Shown here in pieces: positions 31,941-54,682 of a DNA stretch of 58,322 nucleotides; position 1 is the stretch's first letter; every line of letters starts with the position of its first letter. The DNA lies in the NCBI GenBank assembly GCA_949296355.1, contig CASFPS010000019.1, positions 1 through 58,322 of the forward strand, in the 5' to 3' direction. A model generated the notes under the pieces. It was not told where the DNA came from. It ran no database searches and was given only the letters and a program-made list of their open reading frames with translations. This stretch comes from an uncultured bacterium (GTDB lineage Bacteria; Cyanobacteriota; Vampirovibrionia; Gastranaerophilales; Gastranaerophilaceae). The position numbers were made by a program, and so were the translations under genes.

Positions 31941-31982
31941 TGGGTGTGGTGGGACTCGAACCCACGACCAATTGATTAAGAG
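31941..31982. repeat. Left attachment repeat (attL), tRNA-Lys 3' fragment
   Basis: These 42 bp are identical to 58169-58210, covering the discriminator base, acceptor 3' strand, T arm, variable region and part of the anticodon arm of tRNA-Lys on the minus strand. Identity stops at 31983, in the middle of the anticodon, so this copy is not a functional tRNA. Confidence 0.93.
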
Positions 31983-32036
31983 AAATGTAAACCAAGGGGT
32001 AAAAGACTTATTAATATTGCGATACAGCGAGTAATA

Positions 32037-32061
32037 TTTTTCACCGTGTGTCATTTGTGTG
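32037..32061. repeat. 25-bp direct repeat, copy 1 (possible integrase arm site)
   Basis: The 25-bp sequence, with core CACCGTGTGTCATTTGTGTG, is repeated exactly at 33693-33717. Related GTGTG-rich repeats lie at 57951-57989 just after the truncated integrase. The closeness to both attachment sites suggests arm-type binding sites or remnants of nested integration. Confidence 0.7.
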
Positions 32062-32102
32062 CAAGTAAATTTAATAACAATATGAATAAAAAACTATAAT
32101 AA

Positions 32103-32315
32103 TTAATTATTTTCTAATTCTGTTAATGTAAAATCTGAACCTAAATTATCAACCAGTTCACTCAATAATTGAACTGGAGATATTTCCAGACCTTCAGCAA
32201 TTTTCCAAAATGTTGAGAGGTTTATATCCTTACAGACTCCAAGCTCTGCTTCTCTCAGTGTTAATTTAGACATAGATGCTTCTGCTGAAATTGAGTAAAT
32301 AGTTTTATTCTGGTG
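32103..32315 (-). pseudogene. Truncated XRE-type helix-turn-helix gene
   Basis: The minus-strand frame ending at 32103 encodes TIYSISAEASMSKLTLREAE and then LGVCKDINLSTFWKIAEGLE with ISPVQLLSEL. That is the second half of an XRE/Cro helix-turn-helix domain (recognition helix, then the LxxFxKIAxGLEIS helix). An in-frame stop lies a few codons upstream of TIYS, so the first helices are missing. From the internal ATG 32273 it would be a 56-residue protein. Its position just inside attL suggests a leftover of an element control region. Confidence 0.6.
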
Positions 32316-32478: not shown

Positions 32479-32751
32479 ATGAAAATAGCAGGGGTAAATT
32501 ATAGTGTGGGATATAAACAGCCGGCATTCCAGGCTGTTAATCAGAAATATTTAAAAAAAGCCCAGCAGTTATATGAAAGAAGGGGGAATATAACCGCTGA
32601 TTGGATAGAATCATTAACAGATGATGTTGTTTTATTTGGCGATATTTCAAAGAAAGACGCTATTGATACTATGAATGCAGTTAGAAAATATGTTTCTAAA
32701 GAAAGTATGGACGCATTTGAAAGCACTTTTAAATTTATTAAAAATGCCTAG
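32479..32751 (+). CDS. Small protein of unknown function
   Basis: ATG 32479 has AAGGAG 8 bases upstream and gives 90 residues; an upstream GTG frame is not preferred. The N terminus MKIAGVNYSVGYKQPAFQAV resembles the start of the phospholipase-like protein at 6669 (MQIGNVDNSINFKW): both begin M-x-I, then V and an F/Y-K turn. The rest is helical (KKAQQLYERRGNITADWIES, DTMNAVRKYVSKESMDAFES). No family is recognised. It is convergent with, and overlaps by 4 bp, the next gene; the pair sits between two copies of a 25-bp repeat. Confidence 0.6.
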   Translation: MKIAGVNYSVGYKQPAFQAVNQKYLKKAQQLYERRGNITADWIESLTDDVVLFGDISKKDAIDTMNAVRKYVSKESMDAFESTFKFIKNA

Positions 32752-33593
32752 TCAAATAATTTAGCTACTTTATTTCCTGCGATAGCACCAAGTCCCATAC
32801 CGACAAGTGAACCAACCGGACCAAAGTATTTGGCACCGATTGCACCGCCATAACCTATACCGGCAATTGAGCTGGTTAAGTTTATTGCAGATTTTGCCGT
32901 AGCTTTTATTGCATTTTCTCCATCTGATATCTCTTTTAATAAATGAGCAGCTTCCAAGCCACCAAGAACAGCTGTACCAATTTTAGTTGTACGTGTCATT
33001 GCACGTGCTGTAAGTTCAATAAATGGCTTGGTCTTAAACTGTCGAGCTTTTATATAATTTTGTTCATTTGGCGAGCTTGTTATATTTTTAATTTTTGTAC
33101 TTACAAAATCCTCTTTTACTTTAAATTTATTAATTAACCAATCGCCAAGGCGTGTTTGTATGAGAGTTGTATCATTTTTAAATAGCCATTTTGCAAGCTT
33201 AGGGCAGGGACTTGTTTTAGGGTTTACAAATTTATGTAAAAGTGTTCCCCTGAAAAACGAGAATGGGTGTTGTGCCGTTTTGTAGTCATAAGAAGGTGTA
33301 AATTTTTCACCAAGTGCGGAAGCTTTTATTTGTGCATAAGCTGATTTCATATCTCTCCAATCCTCCGGTGCATTAAGAACCGCCAGTGCAACAAGACCTG
33401 TTGCCGGAACAAAATCGGAATGTTCAACTTTATCCGGCACTCTCTCTACACGCCTAAAAGTTGGTATTATATCAAAGATTGAAGGTAGCTTGTTTTCTTT
33501 ATCGACAGCATTTTTTACTTCCTCATAATCCTGCTGAATTTGAGGTAGTTTATCTATTTGGTTTTGATACATGATAGGATTAATTGCACACAT
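32748..33593 (-). CDS. Hypothetical protein with glycine-zipper C terminus
   Basis: The 281-residue protein has a soluble N-terminal part that includes GLVALAVLNAPEDWRDMKSA (about residues 67-86). A C-terminal stretch of alternating Gly and small residues (SIAGIGYGGAIGAKYFGPVG, then SLVGMGLGAIAGNKV) can insert into membranes as a glycine zipper. There is no signal peptide. The function is unknown; membrane association or a pore-like C terminus is inference. It lies between the two 25-bp direct repeats with the convergent small gene, so the two form a cassette. Confidence 0.6.
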   Translation of the reverse strand: MCAINPIMYQNQIDKLPQIQQDYEEVKNAVDKENKLPSIFDIIPTFRRVERVPDKVEHSDFVPATGLVALAVLNAPEDWRDMKSAYAQIKASALGEKFTPSYDYKTAQHPFSFFRGTLLHKFVNPKTSPCPKLAKWLFKNDTTLIQTRLGDWLINKFKVKEDFVSTKIKNITSSPNEQNYIKARQFKTKPFIELTARAMTRTTKIGTAVLGGLEAAHLLKEISDGENAIKATAKSAINLTSSIAGIGYGGAIGAKYFGPVGSLVGMGLGAIAGNKVAKLFD

Positions 33594-33755: not shown

Positions 33756-34658
33756 TTAATCCTTTTCAAAATTTTCATGTTTACTAAAATTATAATCTTT
33801 ATTTATATCTTCATACATAACAGATAAATTTTGTACAAGATTCTTAATATTATTTTTTACTATAGATGAATTTACCGTTTTAAAATTATATAAATCTTGT
33901 AATTTTCTTCTCCATTCTTCTGCATTATCATAAACAGAACACTCAACTAGGAACTGTCTTAATCTTATTACATTATATCTTGTAATTAATAATTCATTTA
34001 AAAGAAGTGCTAGTGAAGCCTTAACATACTCATAAGGACAAAAAGTATTAATTTGTGTTTGTATTGACTGGATAGATGTTATAACTTCCTCAATTTCGTC
34101 AAAAGATTTTAAAAATTTTGAAAATATATCGTAAGAATTAACTTCATCTATATAATCTAAATTAAAATGTTCTTTCTGATATCGCCATAATTCAAAATGC
34201 TTTGCTGTTTCATTAAAATCTTTATAACTGGTAATTATTCCCCATGCAAAGTACCTTCCAAAATATGTTATAATCATTGATATTATACGACTTAAATCTC
34301 TACTTAACATATAATAAGCATCAATTTTATGATCAAAATTATATTTCTCTGAATTTAATATTTTTATATCCCCATCCCAAATTATTTCTTTCCTATATCT
34401 TTCACCAGTAGTAAGAATATTGAGTGTTAATAGAATGGAGAATATTGCACCATACAACATATTTTTTGTATTTTGGTCTATATTTGTATGTAAATAAATA
34501 TACATAAAAAATAAAAACATAATTATATTAACAATTATATTATCTTTTAATATTATGATAAAAGCTTTAATAAAAAATATTATATGTTTAAAAGACAAAA
34601 AAATAGGGTTAACAATTTTATATAAATGAAATTTGTTTATGTATTTATATTTATCCAT
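33756..34658 (-). CDS. Membrane protein of unknown function, end of glycan operon
   Basis: This is a 300-residue, strongly AT-rich gene. The N terminus has a hydrophobic stretch (about residues 15-55, FIKAFIIILKDNIIVNIIMF) and a further segment near 69-85 (MLYGAIFSILLTLNILTTG). The rest is a long helical cytosolic part rich in Asn, Tyr and Lys. No known domain is recognised. It is the last gene of the minus-strand glycan run, 73 bp after the GNAT gene. Codon use is like that operon and unlike the chromosome. Restriction to this element is likely. Confidence 0.65.
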   Translation of the reverse strand: MDKYKYINKFHLYKIVNPIFLSFKHIIFFIKAFIIILKDNIIVNIIMFLFFMYIYLHTNIDQNTKNMLYGAIFSILLTLNILTTGERYRKEIIWDGDIKILNSEKYNFDHKIDAYYMLSRDLSRIISMIITYFGRYFAWGIITSYKDFNETAKHFELWRYQKEHFNLDYIDEVNSYDIFSKFLKSFDEIEEVITSIQSIQTQINTFCPYEYVKASLALLLNELLITRYNVIRLRQFLVECSVYDNAEEWRRKLQDLYNFKTVNSSIVKNNIKNLVQNLSVMYEDINKDYNFSKHENFEKD

Positions 34659-34731: not shown

Positions 34732-35721
34732 TCAATAACCATCAAAAATTTTTTGATAACATTTATTAAAAATAAATATACGAAAGAAACGAGATAAAAC
34801 TTTTTTCTTTTCTTTACTAACATTAAGATTATTTATCCAATTTTTTAACATATAACAATGTTTTACAAGATTTTTATTTCGATAAACATACCCCGTATAA
34901 GTTTCTGTTGCAATACCGTTAAATTTTTGTTTATAGTCATAATTCCCACCAAGAAGGTAGAATCTTTGTTTTTTGTTTTCTATCAAATCTTTTATTATAT
35001 GGTAATATAAAACCATACCTAATGAATATTTATGATATTTTACATCAAAAGAAAAGTTTTCAAAATACACATCTTTATCATTAGTTTCACATGTAAATCC
35101 AATAGCTAAAATTTGAGATTCAACTCTTAAAACATAAGCTGTCGTTACACCGAAATCTTGCAAATATTTCTTTGCATCATACTTAAAACCATAGGTATTA
35201 TATTTCCATTTCAAATACAAATTAACAATATCGGGCGTAATTTCCGTTTTTGATATTTTTTTTACTGAATACTCGCCAATTTCTTTATTTATTTTTTTAG
35301 GGTACCACTTAGTATTATATCTAAGTTTAGACGAAATCCGTTTATCAAACTCTTCAATTGTAGATGGTAAATCAATGTGCCAATGTGTAGCCGGTTTAAT
35401 ATAATCTAGTTTGTTTGGTGTGTGAAGGAAATGCAATGCTTCTATGTTTTTATTTGTTTCAAATAAAAACTCAATAAATTCATTGAATACATTTGAGTTA
35501 AGGGTTCTCATATATAAGCCTACTTCAGCAATGTTATTTTTGATAAAAACCGGAATATACACAGTATCATAAGGTTCTAGCGCTTTAAATAGCCGTACCC
35601 CCCCCCCTACTGCGTTTGAGCCACTTTGAGACAATAAATCAAAACGATTTTTAATAACATTTGGAAAAATTTCCGTTTCAAAAAGATTTTTTAAATTTTC
35701 TGTTACTTCAATTATAGACAT
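34732..35721 (-). CDS. GNAT-fold acyltransferase (BioF2/FemAB-like), phase-variable candidate
   Basis: The 329-residue protein resembles the GNAT acyltransferases related to CelD/BioF2 and to FemAB. The C-terminal segment YHKYSLGMVLYYHIIKDLIE, then YLLGGNYDYKQKFNG (about residues 229-268), is the acyl-CoA-binding helix and the YK motif typical of that group. It presumably acylates a sugar or amino sugar made by the upstream genes. Near the 5' end, codons 39-41 are GGG-GGG-GGG followed by GTA, a run of ten G in a very AT-rich gene, placed where slippage would shift the frame early. In this sequence the frame is intact (ON). It lies 10 bp after the pyruvyltransferase fusion. Confidence 0.75.
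   Translation of the reverse strand: MSIIEVTENLKNLFETEIFPNVIKNRFDLLSQSGSNAVGGGVRLFKALEPYDTVYIPVFIKNNIAEVGLYMRTLNSNVFNEFIEFLFETNKNIEALHFLHTPNKLDYIKPATHWHIDLPSTIEEFDKRISSKLRYNTKWYPKKINKEIGEYSVKKISKTEITPDIVNLYLKWKYNTYGFKYDAKKYLQDFGVTTAYVLRVESQILAIGFTCETNDKDVYFENFSFDVKYHKYSLGMVLYYHIIKDLIENKKQRFYLLGGNYDYKQKFNGIATETYTGYVYRNKNLVKHCYMLKNWINNLNVSKEKKKVLSRFFRIFIFNKCYQKIFDGY
35598..35607. repeat. Poly-G/C tract of 10, possible phase-variation switch
   Basis: Ten consecutive C on the plus strand equal G10 in the coding strand of the GNAT gene, at codons 39-42. The surrounding gene is AT-rich, so the tract stands out. Gain or loss of one base would truncate the protein. Confidence 0.8.
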
Positions 35722-35731
35722 TTATAACCTC

Positions 35732-37840
35732 TTAGAACTTTAGTTTTATTAGTTTTTTGAAAAAAGTTTTTAGCTTATATTTAAGCTTTGATGATTTAAA
35801 TGTTTTTTGTTTTAGTTCAAATGCATTTTTTCTACAAGATAATGCATTTTTCAACCAGTTTATCCCCTTTGTACGCTCTTTTTCAATGATTTGATTTATA
35901 TTATTCCAGTCAGTAATGTTTAAGTTATCATTACTGATTTTAAATGTTCTGAACAATGATTCAAAACGAGCATTCCCACGTTCAGAATTATATATTGTAT
36001 AGAAAGGCTTGTTGAATATTAGGGCAAAACAAGTGCCGTGAAACGAATCTGTAATAAAAATTTTAGAGTTTTTGATATAAGCTACAAATTCTTCTACACT
36101 GATATTTTTATCTGCAATATTTATAAAGTTTTCACCGTATTTTTTAACTAATTTTCTTGTTTTTTCAGTTTCATCTAAAATATAACCAACTGTTAAATTT
36201 TTTCCACAATCAAGTCCTTTACATAAATCTTCAAAAATCGTAGTTTGTGCTAAAAATACAGGGTCTAAAATATGTTGAGCTGAACAATTGTATTTTTCAC
36301 AAAGGCTCAATCCGCTATCTTCTCTGACAGAAATAGCATCAAAGGCTTTTAGGGAGTTCTTAAAATTTTTTAAAATAAAACTATCCTTACCAAAACTAGC
36401 AGCTATTGCTATCCTCTGTTTATTAGGTTCAGCAAAAGACAAAAGATAAAAATCTCTAGTTTTCCTTATATAATCATCTCTGAAAACTTGATCTGAACCA
36501 ACAATAAATCCATGAGTTGTTATGGCATTCAACTTAGTAAAATCTTTGAAATTTTTACATTGATGAGTTGTATGTAAATATTTTCTAGCAAAGTTATCAG
36601 TAAAACTATCTTTGAAGTTATTTCTTACATGTTTATATCTATAGTCAATGTGAGCATTACTATAATTCATTGAATCTAGCACTGACTGAAAAGCATAAGC
36701 CGTAAGAATTGCACCATAATTTAGAGAAGTCCAAAAATTCAAGCATAAGTAATCATATTTTAAACAACTATCAACGTTATCTTTAAGATTTTTATTTGAT
36801 AAATTTTTAAAGAATAAATCTCGATTCCCATGCATCTTGCTAGAACCATTTAATGTCGGATTGTAAGGTAAAATTTCTTGTAATTCAATGGAAGTAAACT
36901 GTTTTAATTTATTTTGCATTTTAGATATTAGAAATGCACCTTTTGAATTGTTAACTAAAATTTCACTAAGCCCCTTTTTATCATTAAGCTTTTTATTAAT
37001 TTTATTAACACCCCAAAAATCTCCGAGAGTTAAGTCGCCTTGTCTTGGAAGTTTGTTAAATTTACAATCGTCACAGGAGTTTCTTAAACATAAATTATTT
37101 AAGAATGCCCTTAAATAAGTATCTTTTTCAGACGTTGACTGATATGTAGTTCTATTTGTAGAGGTTGTTATAACTAACTTAGATGTCCAGCCATTCACCT
37201 TATCTCTAAAATTTGTAGTAATAAATTCACTACCATCAGTAATTAATTCTGATAAATATTTCTTGAACACTTTGGGCGAACCTACTCCGTGACAGACGAT
37301 ATCTACTAGGAATAAGCCCTCATATGTTTTATTATCCAAATAATTCTTTAACCCAGCAATTTGGCATGGTGTACCACAAAATAATACCATTTTGTGTTTT
37401 ACTAATAACTCTTTAATTTCCGGTAAGATTTTGTATATGTCGCTTTGCAGATATTTTGAACCTTGTACTTTATGTATTTCACTTTTTTTATCAATGATAA
37501 TATGTTCGCAGCTTCCGTCTTGTTTAAAAGCCGCTCCACACACAAATCCATTATTTTCTAAAACATAAAATGCCAGTTCTGAAAAGATTCCCCCACTTGA
37601 ACTTGAATATCTAATCACATCATTCGAAGCTCCTGCATAGCACATAGGGCTGGAACAATTTTCATATCTTGGATTTATAACAGGGCATAGTTTTTCACAT
37701 ATATTACAATTGATACATAACTTATTATCAATGATAGGCGTTGTAAATCCTTCTGAATCAGTTGACATTTTGATAGCACCTTGAGGACATTTAAGAGAAC
37801 AAACTCCGCAACCAGTACAAGACTTATTACTTTTTATCAT
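35732..37840 (-). CDS. Ferredoxin/FrhB-like oxidoreductase fused to polysaccharide pyruvyltransferase
   Basis: The 702-residue protein has three parts. Residues about 1-55 are a two-cluster ferredoxin (CTGCGVCSLKCPQGAI, then CINCNICEKLCPV). Residues about 60-340 match the F420-hydrogenase beta subunit (FrhB) family (SGGIFSELAFYVLENN, LFCGTPCQIAGLKNYL, LTLGDFWGV). From about residue 365 the protein matches a polysaccharide pyruvyltransferase (NFWTSLNYGAILTAYAFQS, GFIVGSDQVFR, ITDSFHGTCFALIFNKP). FrhB-pyruvyltransferase fusions occur in bacterial surface-glycan loci. The pairing suggests a redox step coupled to pyruvyl or ketal transfer on a sugar. The start overlaps the PIG-L stop. Confidence 0.85.
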   Translation of the reverse strand: MIKSNKSCTGCGVCSLKCPQGAIKMSTDSEGFTTPIIDNKLCINCNICEKLCPVINPRYENCSSPMCYAGASNDVIRYSSSSGGIFSELAFYVLENNGFVCGAAFKQDGSCEHIIIDKKSEIHKVQGSKYLQSDIYKILPEIKELLVKHKMVLFCGTPCQIAGLKNYLDNKTYEGLFLVDIVCHGVGSPKVFKKYLSELITDGSEFITTNFRDKVNGWTSKLVITTSTNRTTYQSTSEKDTYLRAFLNNLCLRNSCDDCKFNKLPRQGDLTLGDFWGVNKINKKLNDKKGLSEILVNNSKGAFLISKMQNKLKQFTSIELQEILPYNPTLNGSSKMHGNRDLFFKNLSNKNLKDNVDSCLKYDYLCLNFWTSLNYGAILTAYAFQSVLDSMNYSNAHIDYRYKHVRNNFKDSFTDNFARKYLHTTHQCKNFKDFTKLNAITTHGFIVGSDQVFRDDYIRKTRDFYLLSFAEPNKQRIAIAASFGKDSFILKNFKNSLKAFDAISVREDSGLSLCEKYNCSAQHILDPVFLAQTTIFEDLCKGLDCGKNLTVGYILDETEKTRKLVKKYGENFINIADKNISVEEFVAYIKNSKIFITDSFHGTCFALIFNKPFYTIYNSERGNARFESLFRTFKISNDNLNITDWNNINQIIEKERTKGINWLKNALSCRKNAFELKQKTFKSSKLKYKLKTFFKKLIKLKF

Positions 37841-38604
37841 AATTTCACCTGATAGCCTTTCTTTAAATATGCATTGACACTTGTAATATAAAAAGCTTCG
37901 CTGTAATCAGAATTATTATTTTGCATACCACGATATGAGTTTAATGCTTTAGTTTTTTCTGCATAATTTATCCAAACATGTTGAGATTTATACAAGCTTA
38001 ATAAACGACTTTTTTTATCAATAACATCTGTAATATCAACAAAACAATTAGGATTAGGAATGAGAGACCAAACTTCATAAAATACTATCTTTAAACTGCT
38101 TTTATAACCATTTTTTAACAAAATATTTTTTACTAAAGTATTTGTAATGTAATTGTGTTCGGGGTGCCTGTCATGGGGAACTGGTATAAAAATATAATCA
38201 TATATTGCTGTGTTTAGGACTTTTAAATAATCTTGCAAGTGAGCTTGGATTTGTTTATTTAAGCAGCCCTTGCCAAAAGTTTCAAATATCCAAAACTTTT
38301 TAATACCAAGTTCTTGCATAACTTGAAAAAATTCTTGCATTCTAATTTTACTTCGTTTCTCCGCACTAATATCTTTATAAGCAACACCAGATGAGCCAAT
38401 ACAAATACAGTCAAAACTTGAAGGTGAATGTAACATAACACCGCCGGCACCAATAATTTCATCGTCCGCATGCGGACATATCATAAGACATTTTGTATTA
38501 GCTTTGATATCTAATTCAAACTTGTTATCACATAATTCATTGCGTAGCTTTTTACGATATTTACGAATTGGTATTAAGTTTATTAAAATTTTCTTAATTC
38601 CCAT
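37837..38604 (-). CDS. PIG-L family sugar N-deacetylase
   Basis: The 255-residue protein has the LmbE/PIG-L zinc motif CPHADDEIIGAGGVM (about residues 43-57) and the second site HDRHPEHN (about 143-150) that completes the metal site. Members remove N-acetyl groups from GlcNAc-type sugars in glycans, mycothiol or antibiotics. In this operon a sugar N-deacetylase creates a free amine on which the downstream GNAT could place a new acyl group. The gene overlaps its upstream neighbour by 11 bp and its downstream neighbour by 4 bp, so expression is tightly coupled. Confidence 0.9.
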   Translation of the reverse strand: MGIKKILINLIPIRKYRKKLRNELCDNKFELDIKANTKCLMICPHADDEIIGAGGVMLHSPSSFDCICIGSSGVAYKDISAEKRSKIRMQEFFQVMQELGIKKFWIFETFGKGCLNKQIQAHLQDYLKVLNTAIYDYIFIPVPHDRHPEHNYITNTLVKNILLKNGYKSSLKIVFYEVWSLIPNPNCFVDITDVIDKKSRLLSLYKSQHVWINYAEKTKALNSYRGMQNNNSDYSEAFYITSVNAYLKKGYQVKL

Positions 38605-40561
38605 ATTTTCTCCCTTTTATATGATTATTTTGTATAACAACACCTAAATAATTCTGTTTTATATCTTCGAGGCAGATGTTAAGTTGTTTAGAATAAAGTC
38701 GGTACATTTTTTCATATACAAAGGCTTTAAAAAATGGTTCGCTTAATCTAAATGGTATGGTATTGTGTGCTAGTAAATATTCGCCATGCCATGATGCTTC
38801 ACAACTAATAAGTTTAATAAGTGTTTCAACATTATATTTTTCATCTAACTCTTTACAAACTTTACTGCTGAACATTATAGGGGAAGTTAAAAATCTGTAA
38901 TTTAATCCTTTTCTTTTAAAGAACAACTTAATTGCATGTTCTTTGGGAAACATATCTGAATTACCAAATTTGCAATTTATTAATCGAGCATCTTTGCCTT
39001 GATGACAGACAATGTATGGAGTTTTTTCATCATACATAAAATCTGAAATATGAAAATCTTTTATAAAATACGAATCATCATCTATTGCTAAGTAAAATTC
39101 TGCAATATTAGCTTTATAAAAACGTAATTTAACAATTTGTTGATTTAACCACCCTTTTGAACATTTAGAATCTTGCAAAAATTCCTCTTCTGCTAAAACA
39201 GTAATTGGATAGTATGCAATCTCAGAATTAATCATTTGTTTAACGTTTGTAACAATTGATTTAGGACAAACAATATAAAAAGGAATTTTATCTTTGTTAT
39301 ACTTATCAATGCTTATTTTTAATATCTTTAATCTGTTTAAGTTTTTCTTATAAGTTTTACAAAATAAAACCATTGGGGGCTTATCGTTAATAGGCTTTTT
39401 AACTTCAGAATTTATCAACATTTTTAAATTTGATAAAGATGTTTTATATAGCACCTGTACTGTTTTATTTAAATTTTCTTGGAGTTTCTTATAGTCATGT
39501 AAATTTATTGATATAGCATGCTGCATAGCTTTATACAAATCATCATTATTTTCATATAATAATGCGGAATTGTTATTTACCAATGCTTTATCTGCAAATT
39601 TATTAGATAAAACCATTGGTTTTAAAAAACCATAGCTTAATTGGAAAGCTCCGGTTGTTCCTGTTTCGAGATACCAATCATGCTTTTTATTATTAGGATC
39701 TAAGCAAGGAAGTATGTAATCGGCTTGTTCAACAATCGAATAAAGTTTTTCAAAACTAACATATCCGAGAAATTTAATATATTCTGCCAAGTTTGCTTCT
39801 AATTCATTATGTTTATTGCGACCAGTTATATAAACACAAAAATTCTGAAAACCTTCATTTAAAAGTTTTTGTACATTATCACAAATCAACTTAAAATTTC
39901 TTGAACCGTCACCAGAAATTAAAAATATTGTCTTACTATTTTTGTCAGTAATCTTTACTTTTCCAAAAGAACAAGGATTTACTATTGGTAAATTCCTTTT
40001 ATTATTTGCTAACGTACAACAAGTATGTTTTGATAAAAACTTTTTATGCAATGTATTCATTGTATGACACACATTTATGCAAAAACCATTCTTAGGAGCA
40101 TGTAAATTTCTAAAGTATTTATAAATACAAGAAGGTGATTTTATAGCCCTATCTTTTCTAAATAAAAATGTAGAATTTATAAACATTCCAACATATTTAT
40201 CCATAATCGTGCTATCTGAAAGTATTCTTTCCATAGTAGAAATATTTGTATAATAAACTTTTATCTTGTCCGAGTTTAAACGACAAAGTGGTAAATCATC
40301 TTTGTGTCTTTCTGTTGTTAGTAAGTCAATAGAATAGTCTAGGTCTAATAAATATTTTGCATAACCAGCCATCACTTCGCCGTGAAAATCATTAGCTTCA
40401 AGCATTAATACTCGATTTTCTACTGTGTTATTTTGTAATTCTTTTACTAAAAGATGGTTGATTGGATAATCAATTTTATTCTTATAACAAATTTTAAATT
40501 TCACACCAAAAACATTAAAAACTAATCTAACCCCCTCTTTTTTGATAGAAAAATTTGACAT
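38594..40561 (-). CDS. Two-domain glycosyltransferase (GT-B domain plus DUF6492-like domain)
   Basis: The protein is 655 residues from ATG 40561, which has GAGGAG 8 bases upstream. Residues about 40-400 look like a GT-B glycosyltransferase: a substrate half with GEVMAGYAKYLLDLDYSIDL, then a donor half with FLISGDGSRNFKL, IKFLGYVSFEKLYSIVEQAD and LETGTTGAFQLSYGFLKPMV. Residues about 400-655 are a second domain with GWLNQQIVKLRFYKANIAEF and YLAIDDDSYFI, a DxD-type site as in DUF6492-type and GT-A enzymes. Two sugars might be added by one protein. The assignment of the second domain is by motif only. It overlaps both neighbours. Confidence 0.72.
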   Translation of the reverse strand: MSNFSIKKEGVRLVFNVFGVKFKICYKNKIDYPINHLLVKELQNNTVENRVLMLEANDFHGEVMAGYAKYLLDLDYSIDLLTTERHKDDLPLCRLNSDKIKVYYTNISTMERILSDSTIMDKYVGMFINSTFLFRKDRAIKSPSCIYKYFRNLHAPKNGFCINVCHTMNTLHKKFLSKHTCCTLANNKRNLPIVNPCSFGKVKITDKNSKTIFLISGDGSRNFKLICDNVQKLLNEGFQNFCVYITGRNKHNELEANLAEYIKFLGYVSFEKLYSIVEQADYILPCLDPNNKKHDWYLETGTTGAFQLSYGFLKPMVLSNKFADKALVNNNSALLYENNDDLYKAMQHAISINLHDYKKLQENLNKTVQVLYKTSLSNLKMLINSEVKKPINDKPPMVLFCKTYKKNLNRLKILKISIDKYNKDKIPFYIVCPKSIVTNVKQMINSEIAYYPITVLAEEEFLQDSKCSKGWLNQQIVKLRFYKANIAEFYLAIDDDSYFIKDFHISDFMYDEKTPYIVCHQGKDARLINCKFGNSDMFPKEHAIKLFFKRKGLNYRFLTSPIMFSSKVCKELDEKYNVETLIKLISCEASWHGEYLLAHNTIPFRLSEPFFKAFVYEKMYRLYSKQLNICLEDIKQNYLGVVIQNNHIKGRKYGN

Positions 40562-40565
40562 GCAA

Positions 40566-41474
40566 TTACTCCTCTGCACTAACTATTTCAAGAATTTCAG
40601 GATATTCATTTATCATAATTTTGTATGCATCTTCAAGACTTATACCGCTTTGACCTGTTTTATTTGAATGAATTAATCCGACCTCTTGTGTACCTTCTAC
40701 ATAATGCAAATCAGCATCAAATCCTTTTATGACTTGGATTTTTGTATGATTTAATACTGCCATACTCCAGAAATATGCATCGTCATGGCTTGGAATAAGT
40801 TTTTTAATTTTATCTATATTTAAACAGTCCTTATATAAACTATGTGGTGGATATAAGCAGCCGCTTCCCCCCATTAATTGGTTAAAAAAAGTAGGTTGAG
40901 TATTGTGCTTAAACTGGTATTTTCGACTGGAAATTCCTTTTAATTCATTTTTATCCAATTTTAGTTTTACAGCTCTTCTAACATATATATTATTGGGATT
41001 ATTTAAATATGCAGTATAAAGACTTTCTAAAACGTCCTCTTCATAATATACATCATCATCTGCTGTTACAATAATATCATTGGGAAATGCTTTTAATGCT
41101 GGAACTAATTTTTTGTATGATTTTAGATCCTCACACCATTTAATTGTTAAGCCAAGTTTTTTTAATTTTAACAATTCTGGTGGAAGGCTGTTTTCTCCAT
41201 TAGGAAATTGTTCTAATGCAAGCCATAAAACAATTTCATCAGCTTTTAATTTTTGATTAAGTAATGTATTTATCGTTTTATGAACTGTTTTAATTCTTGC
41301 AGGATAGGAGGTTAAAGAAACAATGAGTTTAGGGGTTCTTTTTTCTTCAGTAATTCCATATTCATGGGCATCTTTGTATTTGAACTTACATTTGTGTTTA
41401 AAACAAATACTTATTCCAAGAATTTGTATATGAAAATGATTATCTAAATCCTTAAATAGAAATAGCGGATTCAT
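40566..41474 (-). CDS. GT-A glycosyltransferase
   Basis: The protein is 302 residues from ATG 41474 (AAGGAG ribosome-binding site). Residues about 50-200 carry the pattern of a GT2-like group: LIVSLTSYPARIKTVHKTIN, DEIVLWLALEQFP, LTIKWCEDLKSYKKLVPALK and the metal site IIVTADDDVYYEEDVLESLY. A short N-terminal piece, FHIQILGISICFKHK, also begins the neighbouring glycosyltransferase (NVFGVKFKICYKNK), suggesting a shared docking or membrane-contact element. The donor and acceptor are unknown. The start lies inside the end of the GT9 gene. Confidence 0.82.
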   Translation of the reverse strand: MNPLFLFKDLDNHFHIQILGISICFKHKCKFKYKDAHEYGITEEKRTPKLIVSLTSYPARIKTVHKTINTLLNQKLKADEIVLWLALEQFPNGENSLPPELLKLKKLGLTIKWCEDLKSYKKLVPALKAFPNDIIVTADDDVYYEEDVLESLYTAYLNNPNNIYVRRAVKLKLDKNELKGISSRKYQFKHNTQPTFFNQLMGGSGCLYPPHSLYKDCLNIDKIKKLIPSHDDAYFWSMAVLNHTKIQVIKGFDADLHYVEGTQEVGLIHSNKTGQSGISLEDAYKIMINEYPEILEIVSAEE

Positions 41475-42390
41475 TCTTTTCTCCTTCAATTATATCCAGG
41501 GCACATTTAAAAATATTTTCTGCTGAAAAATTGTCACTTATTACTTTGGCACTATATAGCTCTGGGTTCGGTGCCCATATTGGAACAGTATTTGTTCTAT
41601 AAAATAAAGCTATAACCGGACAAGCAACAGCACAGCCGAGATGCATTGTTCCGGTATCAACACTTATTAAACAGGTGCTTTTTTTCAAAACAGCTCCCAA
41701 TTCTGGAATAGAAGTTTTATTTACTAAATTTACAAACTTACAACCTGCCTTTAGTAAGGCATCTGCAAAAGTTTCAGCTTTACTACCAGCCCCAACAAAG
41801 ATTGTTTTAAACGAGGTCGAGTTAATTCTATGAATAAGCTCTATTGCAGTTTCTAGCGGCATGTCTTTTTCTGGATTTTTGCTTAAAGCACAAAGTACAA
41901 TATATTTTTCGGGGATATTAATTATAGATTTAACATGATTTAACATGCTTTCCGGAACATTGTATCTAATTGGTAAATTTTTGACAGTTGTTCCCTTTAA
42001 CTTATTTAATAGTAATGTATGGGCAAGTTGAACATTAGCATAGTACAGTTTTTTAGGAGTAATAATATTTTTCGCTCTCAAAAGTAGTGAAATCACAAAA
42101 TTACGTTCGTTTTTATAGGTTATAAACGCACAATAGGGCTGCTTGTAAGGAAAGTTTCTGACAAATTTAAACATTCCTTTGATTCCTCTATGTATACCTT
42201 TTTTATCATAGCTAATGACTTCATCGACAGCTTCTTGATATTTTGCAACATCTACAAAAGATTTATCTGTAATAAAAATAATTTTGGCTTCCGGAAAGTT
42301 TATACGTATATTTTGACATAACGAATTACAGAGTAACACATCTCCGAAAGCCGCAGTATTAAATACTAAAAAAATTTTATTATTTTTCAT
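41452..42390 (-). CDS. GT9-family glycosyltransferase (heptosyltransferase-like)
   Basis: The 312-residue GT-B enzyme starts IFLVFNTAAFGDVLLCNSLC, the GT9 pattern with GD after a short loop. The donor half has LCALSKNPEKDMPLETAIEL (usually S/AR-KxWP in true heptosyltransferases, diverged here), TIFVGAGSKAETFADALL and the nucleotide-sugar site LISVDTGTMHLGCAVACPVI. GT9 enzymes build lipopolysaccharide cores, which implies an outer membrane, but the sugar here need not be heptose. The start codon overlaps the stop of the Stealth gene by 4 bp. Confidence 0.87.
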   Translation of the reverse strand: MKNNKIFLVFNTAAFGDVLLCNSLCQNIRINFPEAKIIFITDKSFVDVAKYQEAVDEVISYDKKGIHRGIKGMFKFVRNFPYKQPYCAFITYKNERNFVISLLLRAKNIITPKKLYYANVQLAHTLLLNKLKGTTVKNLPIRYNVPESMLNHVKSIINIPEKYIVLCALSKNPEKDMPLETAIELIHRINSTSFKTIFVGAGSKAETFADALLKAGCKFVNLVNKTSIPELGAVLKKSTCLISVDTGTMHLGCAVACPVIALFYRTNTVPIWAPNPELYSAKVISDNFSAENIFKCALDIIEGEKNESAISI

Positions 42391-43313
42391 TTTTCAAATG
42401 AAGATTTGTTAGGGAATTTTTTCTCTAAGAAATCTTTTATTTCCTTTCTGTTACTGTCTGTAGTTTTACGACAATCATTTATGCACATTAATTTTGCCTT
42501 GGACTTTATAATCTTTTTTATTTTTGAAGATTTTAAGTCATAACATTCCGACTCAACTTCCTTGCCAAACAAAGAAGTAAAGAGATTTGGGATAGTTGTT
42601 CTTAAAATTCCCTGTCCCTTGTAAATCATATAGTAAGAAATTATTATTCTTTGTAAGTCTGAAAATTGTCTAAAACGGTGATTTAAGGTTTCATCAAATT
42701 CTGTCTGAAAGTCTTTAATACATTCTAAAAATAATGATTTCTTATATGCATCAATTCCATGGTGCGGAAAATATGGAATATCGACACCAAACCTAGATTT
42801 CATAAGTTTGTATGCTCGATTTATTGTATATCCATATATGTGCTTGTATGCTCTATTTTGAATTTTTTTCCCGAAACGGCACACGGCTTTGTCATTTTCA
42901 AAGAAAAATGTTTCATCAACAGGATTCCATATAAACATATCATCATTTGCATAAAGAAAATTTTCCGACAACTCTTTTATAAAAGGTATTCTGGTCTCAA
43001 TTGCACAAGAATTAAAAAGTGGCAATTTCTCTTGGGGAATTATTTCCGAATGATCCACAATTCTTAACTTTTTATTACTTAAATCAAGCCAGTTGGGTAT
43101 CTGTTTATCTGTAATAATATAGATGTTTTCTATCCAAGGAATGTTTTGCTCAACGGAGCGTAACGAATACTTTAACTCATCATTACTAATAAACCTGCAA
43201 TCATTAATGGCATCTTTTGCATAATCTGAGTCTGCATCAATACTTGCACTTTTTCTCTTTTTCCATTCTTCATCAGAACTGTCTACCCATAAATAAACTA
43301 AATCAATTTTCAT
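42387..43313 (-). CDS. Stealth-family hexose-1-phosphate transferase
   Basis: The protein is 308 residues from ATG 43313, chosen for AAGGAAG 7-8 bases upstream. A longer frame starts within the operator palindrome. The Stealth conserved regions are visible: CR1 IDLVYLWVDSSDEEW (residues 2-16); CR2 NDELKYSLRSVEQNIPWIEN, then IYIITDKQIPNWL; the catalytic-site loop FLYANDDMFIW; and CR3-like PHHGIDAYKK. Stealth proteins transfer sugar-1-phosphate to make phosphodiester-linked polymers such as capsules. It is the first gene of the glycan operon and follows a 13-bp-arm palindrome, so it is probably the regulated entry point. Confidence 0.85.
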   Translation of the reverse strand: MKIDLVYLWVDSSDEEWKKRKSASIDADSDYAKDAINDCRFISNDELKYSLRSVEQNIPWIENIYIITDKQIPNWLDLSNKKLRIVDHSEIIPQEKLPLFNSCAIETRIPFIKELSENFLYANDDMFIWNPVDETFFFENDKAVCRFGKKIQNRAYKHIYGYTINRAYKLMKSRFGVDIPYFPHHGIDAYKKSLFLECIKDFQTEFDETLNHRFRQFSDLQRIIISYYMIYKGQGILRTTIPNLFTSLFGKEVESECYDLKSSKIKKIIKSKAKLMCINDCRKTTDSNRKEIKDFLEKKFPNKSSFEK

Positions 43314-43336
43314 TTTTTTCTTCCTTTTTTTGTATT

Positions 43337-43366
43337 TTCTATACACAATTTATATTGTGTATAGAA
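43337..43366. promoter_or_regulatory. Perfect palindrome upstream of the glycan operon
   Basis: TTCTATACACAAT (43337-43349) and ATTGTGTATAGAA (43354-43366) are perfect 13-bp arms around TTAT. It lies 24 bp upstream of the Stealth start codon. Such a long perfect dyad at an operon head fits the binding site of a dimeric repressor or activator, or an RNA hairpin in the leader. Confidence 0.75.
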
Positions 43367-43495
43367 CGCAATATTAGTAGGATTTTTGAGCTTTTTAAGT
43401 GACAAGTATTTTGGGTTTTTATACAAAAATTTTGCATACAAAAATATCTGCATATTTTTTGTGTTATACTGTTCTTATGCAGATTGAAATTTAAT

Positions 43496-43525
43496 TTCTA
43501 TACACAATATAAATTCTATAAAGAA
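43496..43525. promoter_or_regulatory. Second, degenerate copy of the palindrome
   Basis: The left arm TTCTATACACAAT is repeated exactly at 43496-43508, followed by ATAA and a right arm ATTCTATAAAGAA with four mismatches. The rest of the 390-bp gap (43314-43705) holds CTGCATA/TATGCAG around 43447-43481 and no gene. Two sites 146 bp apart could support looping. Confidence 0.6.
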
Positions 43526-43705: not shown

Positions 43706-44245
43706 CTATAGGATAAAATTTGTATAACTCTCATCAATCTCTTCTTGTTCAATACCGATATAAGTAAGTGTTACCGCAGGACTAGAATGATTAAAGATTT
43801 TTTGCAGCATGGCAACATCTTTATACTTTTTATAATGATGATACCCAAAAGTTTTTCTCATTGAATGAGTACCAAATTTCTCTTCCAGATGTGCTGCTTC
43901 GCAGGCTTCTCTTATCGTATAATATGCAGTTACTCTGCCCAGTCTATTTTTAAATTTTGTTATAAAAAGCGGTTCATCAGCTTTTCGCCCTTTAGTAAAT
44001 TCTTCTAGCATTGGTTTTAATTTTGCATTAATAGGAAATTTTTTAAATTTTCCGGTTTTCTTTTCTGTCAATTGAATATAGTTTTTACCCTTAACATCAC
44101 CAACATTAAGAGCCAGAATGTCGGATATTCTCAATCCGCAATTTGTTCCAATCGTAAAGAATAATAAATCTCTGGGATTTTTAGAAAGAATTTGTTCAAC
44201 TCTTTTCAAATCCGCCCTGTTTCTAATTGGTTCTACTTTGTTCAT
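43706..44245 (-). CDS. Minimal tyrosine recombinase (phage integrase family)
   Basis: The protein is 179 residues from ATG 44245 (AAGGAG ribosome-binding site); longer frames exist upstream but lack one. It is a catalytic domain only, with the full active site: R39 (CGLRISDIL), K63, H127 and R130 (THSMRKTFGYHH), H153 (FNHSS) and nucleophile Y162. The N terminus KVEPIRNRADLKRVEQILSK is typical of the short phage recombinases found near lysis genes. It may act on DNA resolution or inversion rather than on tRNA integration, because it lacks an arm-binding domain. It lies just downstream of the amidase. Confidence 0.88.
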   Translation of the reverse strand: MNKVEPIRNRADLKRVEQILSKNPRDLLFFTIGTNCGLRISDILALNVGDVKGKNYIQLTEKKTGKFKKFPINAKLKPMLEEFTKGRKADEPLFITKFKNRLGRVTAYYTIREACEAAHLEEKFGTHSMRKTFGYHHYKKYKDVAMLQKIFNHSSPAVTLTYIGIEQEEIDESYTNFIL

Positions 44246-44261
44246 AAACTCTCCTTTCTTT

Positions 44262-44753
44262 TTATCTTGCATGTTTTGTGTACCACCGGACTTTATTTCT
44301 AATAAAGTACCCAACATCAGAGTATTTAACCTCTGGATATGGCGGTAGAAAGCCTATATCTGGTTTTCCGGCAGAGCTTGTTTCTGGGTGTTTAAGTCCA
44401 AATTCATAATGAGTAAGAACGGTGTCTGGGGTAATAGCAATATTATACTGTCTGCAAAGCTCTGCAACTTTTTTCATGCAAGCTTCAAACTGGATATTTG
44501 TCATAGGATATTGCCCCATATTTTTAGGATTTTTATATCCAAACATACAAGCCATAGCGATACCAATTGAACCGGTATTGCCACCGCCTGTGTGTTTTGC
44601 ATATTTGCCATCATAACAATTAAGATTATCTTCTGGGGTATAATTACCTTTATGTACTGTTCCAAGCCCATCAACAATAAAATGATAATCCTCTTTTTCT
44701 TTTTCATTAGGAACATACGTTCCGCCAGTCCAGTGAATAATTATTCTTTTCAT
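44262..44753 (-). CDS. N-acetylmuramoyl-L-alanine amidase (endolysin)
   Basis: The 163-residue Amidase_2/PGRP-type domain cleaves the MurNAc-L-Ala bond of peptidoglycan. Probable zinc ligands are H7 (IIIHWTGG), H115 (VLTHYEFG) and D132 (AGKPDIG), with the conserved NTGSIGIAMACM (about residues 59-70) and K130 as in T7 lysozyme-type enzymes. There is no signal peptide, so release would need a holin, perhaps the small membrane protein at 46789. It is compact, without a cell-wall-binding domain. It sits between the terminase and the recombinase. Confidence 0.9.
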   Translation of the reverse strand: MKRIIIHWTGGTYVPNEKEKEDYHFIVDGLGTVHKGNYTPEDNLNCYDGKYAKHTGGGNTGSIGIAMACMFGYKNPKNMGQYPMTNIQFEACMKKVAELCRQYNIAITPDTVLTHYEFGLKHPETSSAGKPDIGFLPPYPEVKYSDVGYFIRNKVRWYTKHAR

Positions 44754-44881: not shown

Positions 44882-45490
44882 ATGCTAAGAAGAAATGGTT
44901 CAATGTTTAGTATATTCAAAACTCAAAATTACAAAGTTACTAAGTCTAATGGTAATTCATTTGATATGCAGGCTAGCAATTCAGATGGCGGGTTAAAAAT
45001 TTTCGTGGAACAAAGTGCAATAACCCCAAATGCCATAGAATGTGGTGATATAATTGAAACTGTATTATCAAATGGAGTGAAGGAAACTTTTGAAGTAATA
45101 GAACCTGGATATTATGATACAGATTTGTTTCCTGCACATTATCAGATTAAAGTAAAAAGAATCAACAATATTAATGCTAGAAATTCTGCTAATATGTTTC
45201 CACATTCAATTAATAATAATGGGGGGACGGTTGTTATAAACCAATCATCTCCTAATGCAAGCATAAATATAAATCAATGCTCTAAATTTGATGAAATCAA
45301 ACAGGTTATTGAAACTTGTAACGAAATTAACAATAAAGAAGCTATATTAAAAATATTAGCAGAAATGCAACAGCTAACGAATGATAAAAGTTCTTTTGCT
45401 CATAAGTATAATGAATTAGTAAGTGCTCTTGCGAATCATATGACACTATTAACCCCTTTTATAACTTATCTAGCGAAATTCTTACCATAA
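44882..45490 (+). CDS. Hypothetical cargo protein transcribed against the late operon
   Basis: The 202-residue protein has an N-terminal beta-rich part with YKVTKSNGNSFDM, then CGDIIETVLSNGVKETFEVI and EPGYYDTDLFPAHYQIKVKR. A linker with GGTVVINQSSPNASININQ, an amyloid-like strand pattern, follows. The C-terminal helical domain ends VSALANHMTLLTPFITYLAK. The start has AAAGGA and its own promoter. An oppositely oriented, independently promoted gene inside a phage late region is typical of lysogenic-conversion genes. I do not recognise the family; a defence or host-modifying role is inference. Confidence 0.65.
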   Translation: MLRRNGSMFSIFKTQNYKVTKSNGNSFDMQASNSDGGLKIFVEQSAITPNAIECGDIIETVLSNGVKETFEVIEPGYYDTDLFPAHYQIKVKRINNINARNSANMFPHSINNNGGTVVINQSSPNASININQCSKFDEIKQVIETCNEINNKEAILKILAEMQQLTNDKSSFAHKYNELVSALANHMTLLTPFITYLAKFLP

Positions 45491-45493: not shown

Positions 45494-46786
45494 TTATTTA
45501 ATTGGGAAATAGTAATCAACCATATATGAAGCCGCATCAAAAGGGTGTTCTAAGAATTTTAAATCATGGTCGTTTTTTATCTGTTTTAGGGAAGGTACAT
45601 CTACTATAGAAGTTCCTTCCTTAAAAGACAGATTATAGACATTATGCAGAAGCCATTTACAGCGTTTGTCGATAAATAGTGATACTGTTCCTTTGGAGTT
45701 GCGAACTTTTGCATTAAAAGCCTGTATTCTTCGTAAAATAGGCGGATTAAAGTTTCTTAGATGAAACTTAGGTGTATAACCGTGCATTTCAAGCGTACGC
45801 TTTATTATCATATAATTTGTAAATTCTGATTGAGAAGAGCGGTTATCTCCGGAAGCATCACCGTTTATAATCACCTCTCCCCTGTGTTCGGGATATCTGC
45901 GTAAAAATTCATCTATAGCCTGTTGAGTTGTGGTATTTTCAATCACAAGTTCATCAAAGAAATAGATATTTTTATCATCTTTATGAGCTAAGCACCAGCA
46001 CATAGGGTCAACGTTGAAATCACAGGTAAGGTGAAGAGGTAAATCTCTATTGTACTGAAGATGTTTGATATTTTCATCAGTAAAATTCTTAACAACAAGA
46101 CCGGAAGAGTAGTTTCCGAACTCTCCGAGTACGTTTATTCTGTAATACTCTGGGTCAAAATCTTCTTTCATTGATTCCAGATAGTGTTCGGGTAAATATA
46201 TATTATTTGAGGTCGGGGCAATAATAAGCCTGTAGTTTTCTTTTTTATTCTCAACAAACCTTTTATAAATCCAGCCTTTGTTAGCTTGTGGATTTGTATG
46301 TCCGAATAAGCGATATCTAAAATTTCCCCAGGAAGGTTTTACATTGGTATTTCTTAAACGTCCTATAAGCTGTTTAAAAGCACTATCCGATATTTGAGAT
46401 GCTTCCTCTATTTCAGCCCAATGCAGGTTTAGAGATTTTATTTTTTCGGGATTATCAACTCCTTTAAATAAAATCTCTGAACCGTTCGATAAGGTCATTT
46501 TCTTTTCAATTTTATTGAAGGTATAGTGTTTACCTGCAACATAGCCCATAGTATCAAGATGTGAAAAATAAGATTCCAGTGTTGTATCACGCACAAGAAC
46601 ATATTCCTTAGCACATACTAAACCTCGAGAACCAGGGTATTTTCTTGCAAGCATCAGACCCAAAAGCGAACCGCACCAGGTTTTGCCAGAGCCATAGCCG
46701 CCTTGATAAATCACAACATCAAGCTGATGGTTATGAGGTATATTGAAAAATTCCTGCTGTTTTTCTAACAATGAATATTTTGGCAT
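45494..46786 (-). CDS. Phage terminase large subunit
   Basis: The 430-residue packaging motor has Walker A YQGGYGSGKTWCG (residues 27-39, K35), a Walker B-like LHWAEIEEASQ (Asp/Glu pair, about residue 140), and a C-terminal RNase H-like nuclease with LTCDFNVDPMCWCLAH and VIINGDASGDNRSS, the expected metal aspartates. It pumps DNA into procapsids. The start overlaps nothing but lies 2 bp after the holin-like gene. No small terminase or portal is found next to it, while in most phages the portal follows. A T7-like layout would have the portal far upstream, and that part is missing here. Confidence 0.93.
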   Translation of the reverse strand: MPKYSLLEKQQEFFNIPHNHQLDVVIYQGGYGSGKTWCGSLLGLMLARKYPGSRGLVCAKEYVLVRDTTLESYFSHLDTMGYVAGKHYTFNKIEKKMTLSNGSEILFKGVDNPEKIKSLNLHWAEIEEASQISDSAFKQLIGRLRNTNVKPSWGNFRYRLFGHTNPQANKGWIYKRFVENKKENYRLIIAPTSNNIYLPEHYLESMKEDFDPEYYRINVLGEFGNYSSGLVVKNFTDENIKHLQYNRDLPLHLTCDFNVDPMCWCLAHKDDKNIYFFDELVIENTTTQQAIDEFLRRYPEHRGEVIINGDASGDNRSSQSEFTNYMIIKRTLEMHGYTPKFHLRNFNPPILRRIQAFNAKVRNSKGTVSLFIDKRCKWLLHNVYNLSFKEGTSIVDVPSLKQIKNDHDLKFLEHPFDAASYMVDYYFPIK

Positions 46787-46788: not shown

Positions 46789-47016
46789 TTAAGCATCTTT
46801 TCCTTCAAAATTATCAATTCTTTTATGAGCGGATTTTGTGCTTTCTTCGACTTTAACCATTCGCTCAATAAGATTATTGTGTTTATCCTGCTTTTCTTCT
46901 AAACGTTTTATCTGCTGTTCGATAAATTTAATACTCATAGCAAGACCGCCGAGAAAGATTCCGGCGGTCAAGACATTCACGATAATTACTATCATCAATT
47001 CCATACTTATTGACAT
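46789..47016 (-). CDS. Holin/XhlA-like membrane and coiled-coil protein
   Basis: The protein is 75 residues from ATG 47016 (AAGGAG ribosome-binding site; an earlier TTG is not preferred). One transmembrane segment (about residues 5-28, MIVIIVNVLTAGIFLGGLAM) is followed by a charged coiled coil (IEQQIKRLEEKQDKHNNLIE, then RMVKVEESTKSAHKRIDNFE). The ending resembles XhlA-type hemolysin/holin accessory proteins. Its position between tail fibre and terminase matches the class II holin (gp17.5) of T7. A lysis role is inferred from topology and place. Confidence 0.7.
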   Translation of the reverse strand: MSISMELMIVIIVNVLTAGIFLGGLAMSIKFIEQQIKRLEEKQDKHNNLIERMVKVEESTKSAHKRIDNFEGKDA

Positions 47017-47489
47017 TTCCAAGCTCCTTTATGGCACATCTGGTAAATATCAACAAACCAAGCCATTACATTAGCCTTAAAGACATTTACACCGGAAGCC
47101 TTCAGTATTTCTCTAAAAATTAGGCTTGTAAGCCTTCTATATTCTTTTATTGAAATACACTTGTTCAGAACTTCGTCATGGATATACTTCTTGTTTTCAA
47201 GCATATAATCATGTACCATAGAAGCTGTAAGAAAAGCATTATCAGTTTTACTTCCGACTAATCGCCAAAACGAGCGTGGAATATCAGCACCGTTCCATAT
47301 ATATTTTTTCGGAATAGTAAAGCCAAAAATCCGTTTATTAGTAATAACTGTAACCGGAACATCATTGTGTAACTTAAACGGATATTTTTGCTTCTCGGCT
47401 TTAATTTCTTTAGTGTCATTAGCTTCAATAACACGCACGCAAACAATTGGTGTCACATCAAATGTGACATACTTAATTTTTTCTCTCAT
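47007..47489 (-). CDS. DUF1353-family phage protein
   Basis: The 160-residue protein has the DUF1353 pattern GFTIPKKYIWNGADIPRSFW (about residues 56-75), then LTASMVHDYMLENKK (about 87-101). That gives the conserved W-(D/N)-GA-x-IP and HDY motifs. The family is common in phage tail or lysis regions; the conserved Asp and His suggest a metallo-hydrolase but no activity is established. It overlaps the holin-like gene by 10 bp. GAAAGGA is the ribosome-binding site. Confidence 0.82.
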   Translation of the reverse strand: MREKIKYVTFDVTPIVCVRVIEANDTKEIKAEKQKYPFKLHNDVPVTVITNKRIFGFTIPKKYIWNGADIPRSFWRLVGSKTDNAFLTASMVHDYMLENKKYIHDEVLNKCISIKEYRRLTSLIFREILKASGVNVFKANVMAWFVDIYQMCHKGAWKCQ

Positions 47490-47538
47490 ACTTAAATATC
47501 CTTTCTTTGGGGTTATGGGGTAAAAGGGTTAAAATACC

Positions 47539-49413: not shown

Positions 49414-49613
49414 TATTCTGTTTCCTGCTGGTTTTCTAATGCTGATACTCTGCTTGCTAAATCTGCAATATCACTTGTATTAGTCTGAAGATTGGATGCG
49501 TTTGCAGAGATTCTTAGTGACAGAGCTGTAATCTGGTTTTGCAAATCTTCAAAGTTATTATTTAACAAGGTTGAGCTTGCTAAGCTTCCATATTCAATTT
49601 CTTCAATAGTCAT
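49413..49613 (-). CDS. Small coiled-coil virion protein
   Basis: The protein is 66 residues from ATG 49613, which has GAGAGGG upstream; a longer frame to 49640 lacks a ribosome-binding site. The sequence is one heptad-repeat coiled coil (LQNQITALSLRISANASNLQ, then TSDIADLASRVSALENQQ), likely trimeric. It overlaps the 940-residue gene by 11 bp and the fibre gene by 1 bp. A fibre-attachment or chaperone role is inferred from position. Confidence 0.7.
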   Translation of the reverse strand: MTIEEIEYGSLASSTLLNNNFEDLQNQITALSLRISANASNLQTNTSDIADLASRVSALENQQETE

Positions 49614-54088: not shown

Positions 54089-54091
54089 AGA

Positions 54092-54664
54092 TTACATTCC
54101 ATAAGAATAAGATTTTGTACTTCCTGTTCCGGTTGTTGTCGCATTACCGGAACTTGTAGAAAGGGATAATGCTTGATTACCATTAACAGCATTTTGACCT
54201 TGCAAATAAGCATTTGTTAAAAGTGTAATCATATCTCCGGTATTTCTTTGGCTGTTAGCTAATAATTCCGCAGTATAATTTGCGATATTATCGGAAACAT
54301 TTTTTGCTAAATCAGAATACAAATTTGTAGCACTGCTTGACCGAAGCATATTGCGTGATGCAAGAGGGCTTATTATACTATTTTCTAAAGCTTTTCTGCT
54401 CTCATCATTTAATGTTCGAGTATAATTCTGCAATAATGCTTGATTGGTTTCACTGTTAATGTTTGGATTCCGGTATTCTTCCAACAATTCGTCCATGTTT
54501 TTGTTCATGTAATCGTAAATACTTTTATATGCAGTACCTTCATTTAAGGTAGTTGTTGTTCCATTATTATCGGTTACAGATGTAACATACGGATTAGTTG
54601 TCGTTGTCTTTTTATAAGTAGTTGTTGAACTTGAATTAGATTTTGAACTTGAACCGCCGCCCAT
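54092..54664 (-). CDS. Small internal virion protein (gp14-like position)
   Basis: The 190-residue protein begins with a Gly/Ser/Thr-rich disordered stretch (MGGGSSSKSNSSSTTTYKKT). A helical middle (about residues 45-160, LEEYRNPNINSETNQALLQN, then NAYLQGQNAVNGN) and another Ser/Thr-rich tail ending SYSYGM follow. Small MGGG-starting proteins at this place are common in podoviruses and are taken to be ejection or tail-completion proteins. I cannot confirm a fold. Confidence 0.62.
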   Translation of the reverse strand: MGGGSSSKSNSSSTTTYKKTTTTNPYVTSVTDNNGTTTTLNEGTAYKSIYDYMNKNMDELLEEYRNPNINSETNQALLQNYTRTLNDESRKALENSIISPLASRNMLRSSSATNLYSDLAKNVSDNIANYTAELLANSQRNTGDMITLLTNAYLQGQNAVNGNQALSLSTSSGNATTTGTGSTKSYSYGM

Positions 54665-54682
54665 ATTTTCACTTCACTTTCT

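Follow-up and report, generated by a model that had tools for sequence, protein, structure and literature searches.

A prophage-borne surface-polysaccharide operon with two candidate ON/OFF switches in a Gastranaerophilales gut bacterium

Gene content of the operon

The stretch of Gastranaerophilales DNA analysed here, 58,322 bases in full and called the window below, carries a 9.6-kb glycan operon whose genes all lie on the minus strand. Its first gene (positions 42387-43346) encodes a Stealth-family sugar-phosphate transferase with Stealth_CR1-CR4; an 87% identical gene heads a homologous operon in another genome (G160). It is followed by a family 9 glycosyltransferase (gene 2, 41452-42390; PF01075, 1.8e-18), a family 2-like glycosyltransferase (gene 3, 40566-41489; PF00535, 1.7e-5), a DUF6492 protein (gene 4, 38594-40579; PF20102, 3e-16), a PIG-L family N-deacetylase (gene 5, 37837-38604; PF02585, 7.9e-12) and a fusion of FrhB-like and polysaccharide pyruvyl transferase parts (gene 6, 35732-37840; PF04230, 4.7e-31, and PF04432, 2.9e-22). 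Gene 7 (34732-35721), referred to here as the GNAT gene, encodes a FemX-like tandem-GNAT acyltransferase of 329 residues (PF13480, Acetyltransf_6, 9.2e-11 in Pfam). Gene 8 (33756-34658, 300 residues) has no match in Pfam, NCBIfam or PHROG.

The AlphaFold model of the GNAT protein (pLDDT 79) has its best PDB matches among aminoacyl-tRNA-dependent peptide synthases, MprF and FemX, and the predicted fold is equally close to the FemX/MprF aminoacyl transferases and to acetyltransferases. Homologues at two loci (L017, L079) are fused to PIG-L, and another (L082) is fused to a hexapeptide transferase. Within the operon the PIG-L gene sits two genes upstream of the GNAT gene. These arrangements suggest that the deacetylase may free a sugar amine, which the GNAT protein could then acylate or aminoacylate.

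Prophage setting

Phage genes lie on the upstream side of the operon. They comprise an amidase/endolysin (44262-44753; PF01510, phrog_5867), the large terminase subunit (45494-46786; TIGR01547, 4e-34), which is 90% identical in an IMG/VR contig (L182), and a block of late genes (47007-56787), all on the minus strand. The order of terminase, amidase and late genes is conserved in IMG/VR contigs. A 202-residue open reading frame (44882-45490, phrog_16834) lies on the plus strand between amidase and terminase and is 99.5% conserved in a related genome (G174).

Two relatives, G163 and G174, carry the same phage backbone (terminase 98% identical in DNA). The probable left end of the prophage (31941-32312) is 95-96% identical in both, with host flanks at about 78-80%, and the host genes bordering this end in G163 match those of the window at that level. 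A backbone gene for a 281-residue protein (32748-33593, minus strand) is also present in both, at 84-86% protein identity and without the glycan cassette: between this gene and the amidase, different genes replace the recombinase described below and the glycan operon. In G287, terminase, recombinase, inverted repeats and glycan operon follow one another in the same order as in the window. Thus packaging and late genes have conserved counterparts in viral contigs, and relatives either hold the element at the corresponding site or show it altered there, which bears out the earlier note's placement of the GNAT gene inside a prophage. The differing cargo in G163 and G174, together with the recurring order in G287, indicates that the glycan cassette is replaceable phage cargo.

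The alternative cargo at this position (8722-16052 of L326 in G163, 4760-14653 of L328 in G174) includes several proteins of 275-715 residues, and the three proteins tested from G163 are AAA ATPases. The position looks like a cargo hot spot.

An invertible segment beside a tyrosine recombinase gene

Between the operon start (43346) and the amidase gene lies a gene for a small tyrosine recombinase (43706-44245, minus strand; PF00589, 5.2e-22). The protein has 179 residues when counted from a conserved start, M25 of the open reading frame 43706-44317. Residues R63, K87, H151, R154, H177 and Y186, which make up the R-K-H-R-(H/W)-Y signature, are invariant in 18 sequences. With FimB/FimE and the Xer-type recombinases it shares a catalytic domain of about 180-200 residues and the R-K-H-R-H-Y residues. 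Its profile matches are XerC-like, XerA, XerH and XerD, the best being XerA/XerC rather than FimB/FimE, and it belongs to a family of its own in Gastranaerophilales.

A pair of 30-bp inverted repeats, complementary at 27 of 30 positions with a score not reached in 60 shuffles, lies next to the recombinase gene (operon-side arm 43337-43366, recombinase-side arm 43496-43525). The arms enclose a short segment of 129 bp (43367-43495), which is located between the operon start and the recombinase gene. A second assembly of the locus is available as contig CALUQF010000038.1 of the Candidatus Gastranaerophilales MAG BRZ_GG__bin1 (our regions L037, L053 and L331). All 129 bases of the segment are identical in the two assemblies in inverted orientation only, and the flanks are 99.8-99.9% identical. 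Both orientations of a repeat-bounded segment have therefore been observed. The bin that holds L037 is without the rest of the prophage, so that its true host is uncertain.

The segment contains a promoter-like motif of the extended -10 type, TTTTTGTGTTATACTG (43456-43471, plus strand), which points away from the operon in the window and toward it in the second assembly. In 17 segments compared, the best common motif was TGTTTGTGTTATTATA, with a total score of 260 as against 171 +/- 7.6 in shuffled segments; it occupies a similar place in the segments and faces the operon in five and away from it in 12. A generic sigma-70 scan did not call the motif, a result that neither supports nor excludes it, so that the motif is a putative promoter by virtue of its conservation. 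We infer from this conservation that the motif is the promoter of the operon, which would probably be OFF in the window assembly. The inversion itself would be performed by the neighbouring recombinase.

A second comparison gives the same picture. The orthologous switch regions of two other species (L130 in G008 and L138 in G020) are 91.4% identical over 128 bp, and only when one of them is inverted. Just downstream of each (contig C12 of G008, contig C7 of G020) is a second, distant recombinase homologue. A match of the repeat arm in IMG/VR (L067) lies in an unrelated context and was dismissed as due to chance, and the P0001 search of IMG/VR gave no match.

Of 286 genomes of the order, 196 contain relatives of the recombinase. 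An inverted-repeat pair scoring above shuffled sequence was found just 3' of the recombinase gene at 22 of 32 loci examined, a rate that carries a selection bias in that loci L122-L141 were picked partly after repeats had been seen. Downstream of the recombinase/repeat loci lie mainly polysaccharide genes (glycosyltransferases, sugar-nucleotide epimerases and related enzymes). The other 10 homologues, L329, L330 and L141 among them, have no detectable repeat pair; we therefore rejected the idea that every homologue is an invertase, and the family is not always one.

The small single-domain recombinase family, at about 45-48% identity, is also common in Streptococcus prophages (MK448821.1 and other phage records), where the relatives of about 180 residues are annotated only as 'integrase' or 'site-specific recombinase'. 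A different phage contig (L262, IMG/VR 3300032167_006837), with head and DNA-methylase genes, encodes a recombinase of 85% identity, after which come glycosyltransferase genes; no repeat pair was detectable at its recombinase.

The inversion might instead be a one-off rearrangement or an effect of assembly, and the small recombinase gene one of the usual late genes of a phage that serves some other purpose, as the abundance of such a 'site-specific recombinase' in Streptococcus prophages and the repeat-less homologues could suggest. This explanation has to reckon with another orthologous pair, independent of the first, whose members are oriented oppositely, with a conserved motif that faces both ways among the 17 segments, and with repeat arms that diverge between copies of the module while the architecture is kept. 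We consider it most improbable, and regard promoter inversion as very probably a live switch.

A poly-G tract in the GNAT gene

The GNAT gene contains a run of ten G (35598-35607 on the minus strand, C10 on the plus strand) at gene nucleotides 115-124, where it occupies codons 39-42 in frame, exactly as the earlier note had described it. It is the only run of at least seven G or C in the window; Markov models of order 1-4 predict 0.004-0.02 runs of ten or more. By computation, replacing G10 with G8, G9, G11 or G12 yields products of 44-48 residues, and G7 or G13 restores the GNAT frame. A change of one base in either direction thus abolishes the full-length product, and the tract exceeds the length of about eight at which homopolymers in the coding region of a surface gene, or in its promoter, are counted as simple-sequence contingency loci. 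The contingency-locus design proposed in the earlier note is thereby supported, with a 5' position, truncation upon a change of one base and a surface-glycan operon, and kindred G9-G11 tracts occur in sugar-acyltransferase genes of the genus (see below). The note had also called the gene ON. This holds for the reading frame of the GNAT gene and probably not for the operon, whose promoter-like motif faces away in the window and would leave it OFF.

In the second assembly the tract likewise has ten G, amid 3,009 identical bases, which makes a random assembly error an unlikely source of it. No variation in tract length was seen between the two assemblies of the GNAT locus (n=2).

Compared with five homologues (31-36% identity), the GNAT protein has an insertion of seven residues that contains or adjoins the tract (residues 31-41, approximately 35599-35631, minus strand). 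The inserted residues are 35-41 by BLAST, with GGG among them, and 31-37 by MAFFT, next to the tract; all five homologues are without the insertion. In the AlphaFold model, residues 15-40, which overlap the insertion site, are disordered (pLDDT < 50).

A fixed G10 could merely encode a selected linker of three glycines in a protein that is constitutively in frame, and the gene is indeed in frame in both assemblies. This would leave the absence of the loop from the homologues to be accounted for. Moreover, GGG is a minor glycine codon, with a share of 12% in the other genes of the window, so selection for a glycine linker would not favour three such codons in a row. We judge this explanation very unlikely.

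G/C tracts elsewhere in the genome and lineage

About 37 G/C tracts of at least nine bases are present in the genome to which the window belongs. Nearly all the others are intergenic, and many lie within a dispersed repeat; we therefore rejected the notion that they represent a large set of contingency genes, and the abundance of tracts is by itself no support for such loci.

The dispersed intergenic repeat (L009-L036 of this genome; for example L032 at 2973 and L026 at 3012) has an internal tract of G8-G17 whose length varies between copies; a TAAATGTATT-like sequence often comes next. Elsewhere in the genome (L028, 3147) an aconitase-family gene is preceded by a G9 at a distance of four bases from its ATG, at the expected ribosome-binding site, where changes in length could alter translation of that gene.

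Tracts inside solid reading frames were collected from 40 congener regions and the genome itself, a sample and not a census. Five of the six genes concerned, the window gene included, are of acyltransferase type by Pfam, and the tracts lie mostly near the 5' end. A hexapeptide acetyltransferase gene in the same genome (L035) has a G11 that is out of frame; it sits inside a 34-nt insertion, a stretch that an 85% identical orthologue in G029 does not have. In the congener G013, two Acyl_transf_3 genes with G10 and a hexapeptide transferase gene with G9 are all in frame, and in G008 a G9 is in frame in a gene for a membrane protein that matches no Pfam family. Further loci of this kind thus exist in the lineage (L035, L154, two in L155, and L167). 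In two tract-bearing genes the insertions have lengths that keep the frame at G10.

For the L155 acyltransferase, no orthologues that would allow comparison of tract lengths were found in 65 congeners. G057 was discarded as a second strain for genome-wide tract lengths: it is another species or bin, with only the prophage contig in common.

The most serious competing explanation is that promoter inversion is the operon's only switch; on this view G10 would have arisen recently and by accident, as a mutation-prone insertion in a loop that tolerates it. This explanation fits the finding of G10 in both assemblies and the absence of the tract from all homologues; the preponderance of intergenic tracts in the genome shows how readily such runs arise, and a review of phase variation allows for mutation-prone tracts of 'accidental' origin (PMC11868660). 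Set against this are the position of the few intragenic tracts, mostly in sugar acyltransferase genes near their 5' ends (five of six) and in one case out of frame, and the insertions that keep the frame at G10 in two of the genes. We hold this explanation to be unlikely, if deserving of attention, and the G10 tract to be probably a real slippage switch.

Comparison with known systems

A precedent is NeuO of E. coli K1, an acyltransferase encoded by phage CUS-3 and switched by heptanucleotide slippage (PMC13001214). As in the GNAT gene, a surface-glycan acyltransferase is carried as phage cargo with a slippage repeat in its 5' coding region. NeuO has a heptanucleotide repeat and is a single cargo gene, whereas the GNAT gene has a poly-G tract and is part of a 9.6-kb operon with an invertible promoter-like segment; no invertible promoter is described for NeuO in PMC13001214. 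The GNAT protein (PF13480, FemX-like) is not a member of the NeuO family and would work like NeuO in the proposed tract switch. The earlier note had considered a glycan-acylation switch inside a prophage noteworthy; the prophage setting stands, and NeuO is an earlier example of such a switch.

The cited parts of two papers on capsule loci of gut Bacteroidales describe invertible promoters between inverted repeats (PMC3090145, PMC8375218). Those loci share with the window a short segment, bounded by inverted repeats, that carries the promoter, putative in our case, of a polysaccharide operon. As far as those parts go, the Gastranaerophilales loci differ in that each segment has a recombinase gene of its own next to it, and the window locus also in being carried by a prophage.

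The gtr operons of Salmonella are prophage-borne and phase-variable via Dam/OxyR at GATC sites (PMC3688519). They resemble the window operon as glycan-modifying operons on a prophage that are phase-variable, which is proposed for the latter. The window operon has no gtr genes, gtrABC included, and other Pfam content, and its switch region is without GATC sites.

Poly-G contingency loci of Campylobacter and Neisseria, and Campylobacter phages with poly-G tracts (Sorensen 2021, as cited in PMC11868660), have G8-G11 tracts in surface or phage genes, as the GNAT gene does. The GNAT tract differs in belonging to another phylum and in being known at one length, G10 (n=2).

Discussion

We hypothesize that the locus is a prophage-borne surface-polysaccharide operon with two nested ON/OFF switches, an account to which we assign a probability of about 0.7. 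The operon would be cargo of a temperate phage whose host is a gut bacterium of the Gastranaerophilales. At the level of the operon, the phage-carried single-domain tyrosine recombinase would recombine the 30-bp inverted repeats and flip the 129-bp segment, so that the promoter would face either the glycosyltransferase, deacetylase, pyruvyltransferase and GNAT genes or the opposite way. The window assembly would show this switch in its OFF state and the second assembly in its ON state. At the level of the gene, slipped-strand mispairing in G10 would shift the GNAT gene alone in or out of frame, so that the glycan would either carry or lack the acyl group added by the GNAT protein. As acceptor we propose a sugar amine, which the operon's PIG-L deacetylase may expose. 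Of the two switches it is the invertible segment with its recombinase, missed by the earlier note, for which the sequence evidence of switching is direct.

Homologous modules of recombinase and inverted repeats recur across the order, mostly heading polysaccharide operons. We speculate that Gastranaerophilales own a widespread phase-variation module, composed of a single-domain recombinase, an invertible promoter of about 130 bp and a polysaccharide operon, which is partly moved between species by phages and to which poly-G insertions in 5' loops of sugar acyltransferase genes add gene-level switches. For this wider proposal we see the chances as evenly balanced.

Both switches are of kinds already known, here in a form that appears to be new. 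A literature search that excludes most subscription journals yielded nothing on phase-variable surface loci in Gastranaerophilales or Melainabacteria, and the claim to novelty is therefore provisional.

Gastranaerophilales, gut bacteria related to cyanobacteria, have been little studied. If our account is correct, coat switching by promoter inversion would be widespread in this order too, its spread aided by prophages, and a single operon could join promoter inversion with poly-G slippage. The state of the switches can be read from existing metagenome reads, which makes the proposal testable without culture.
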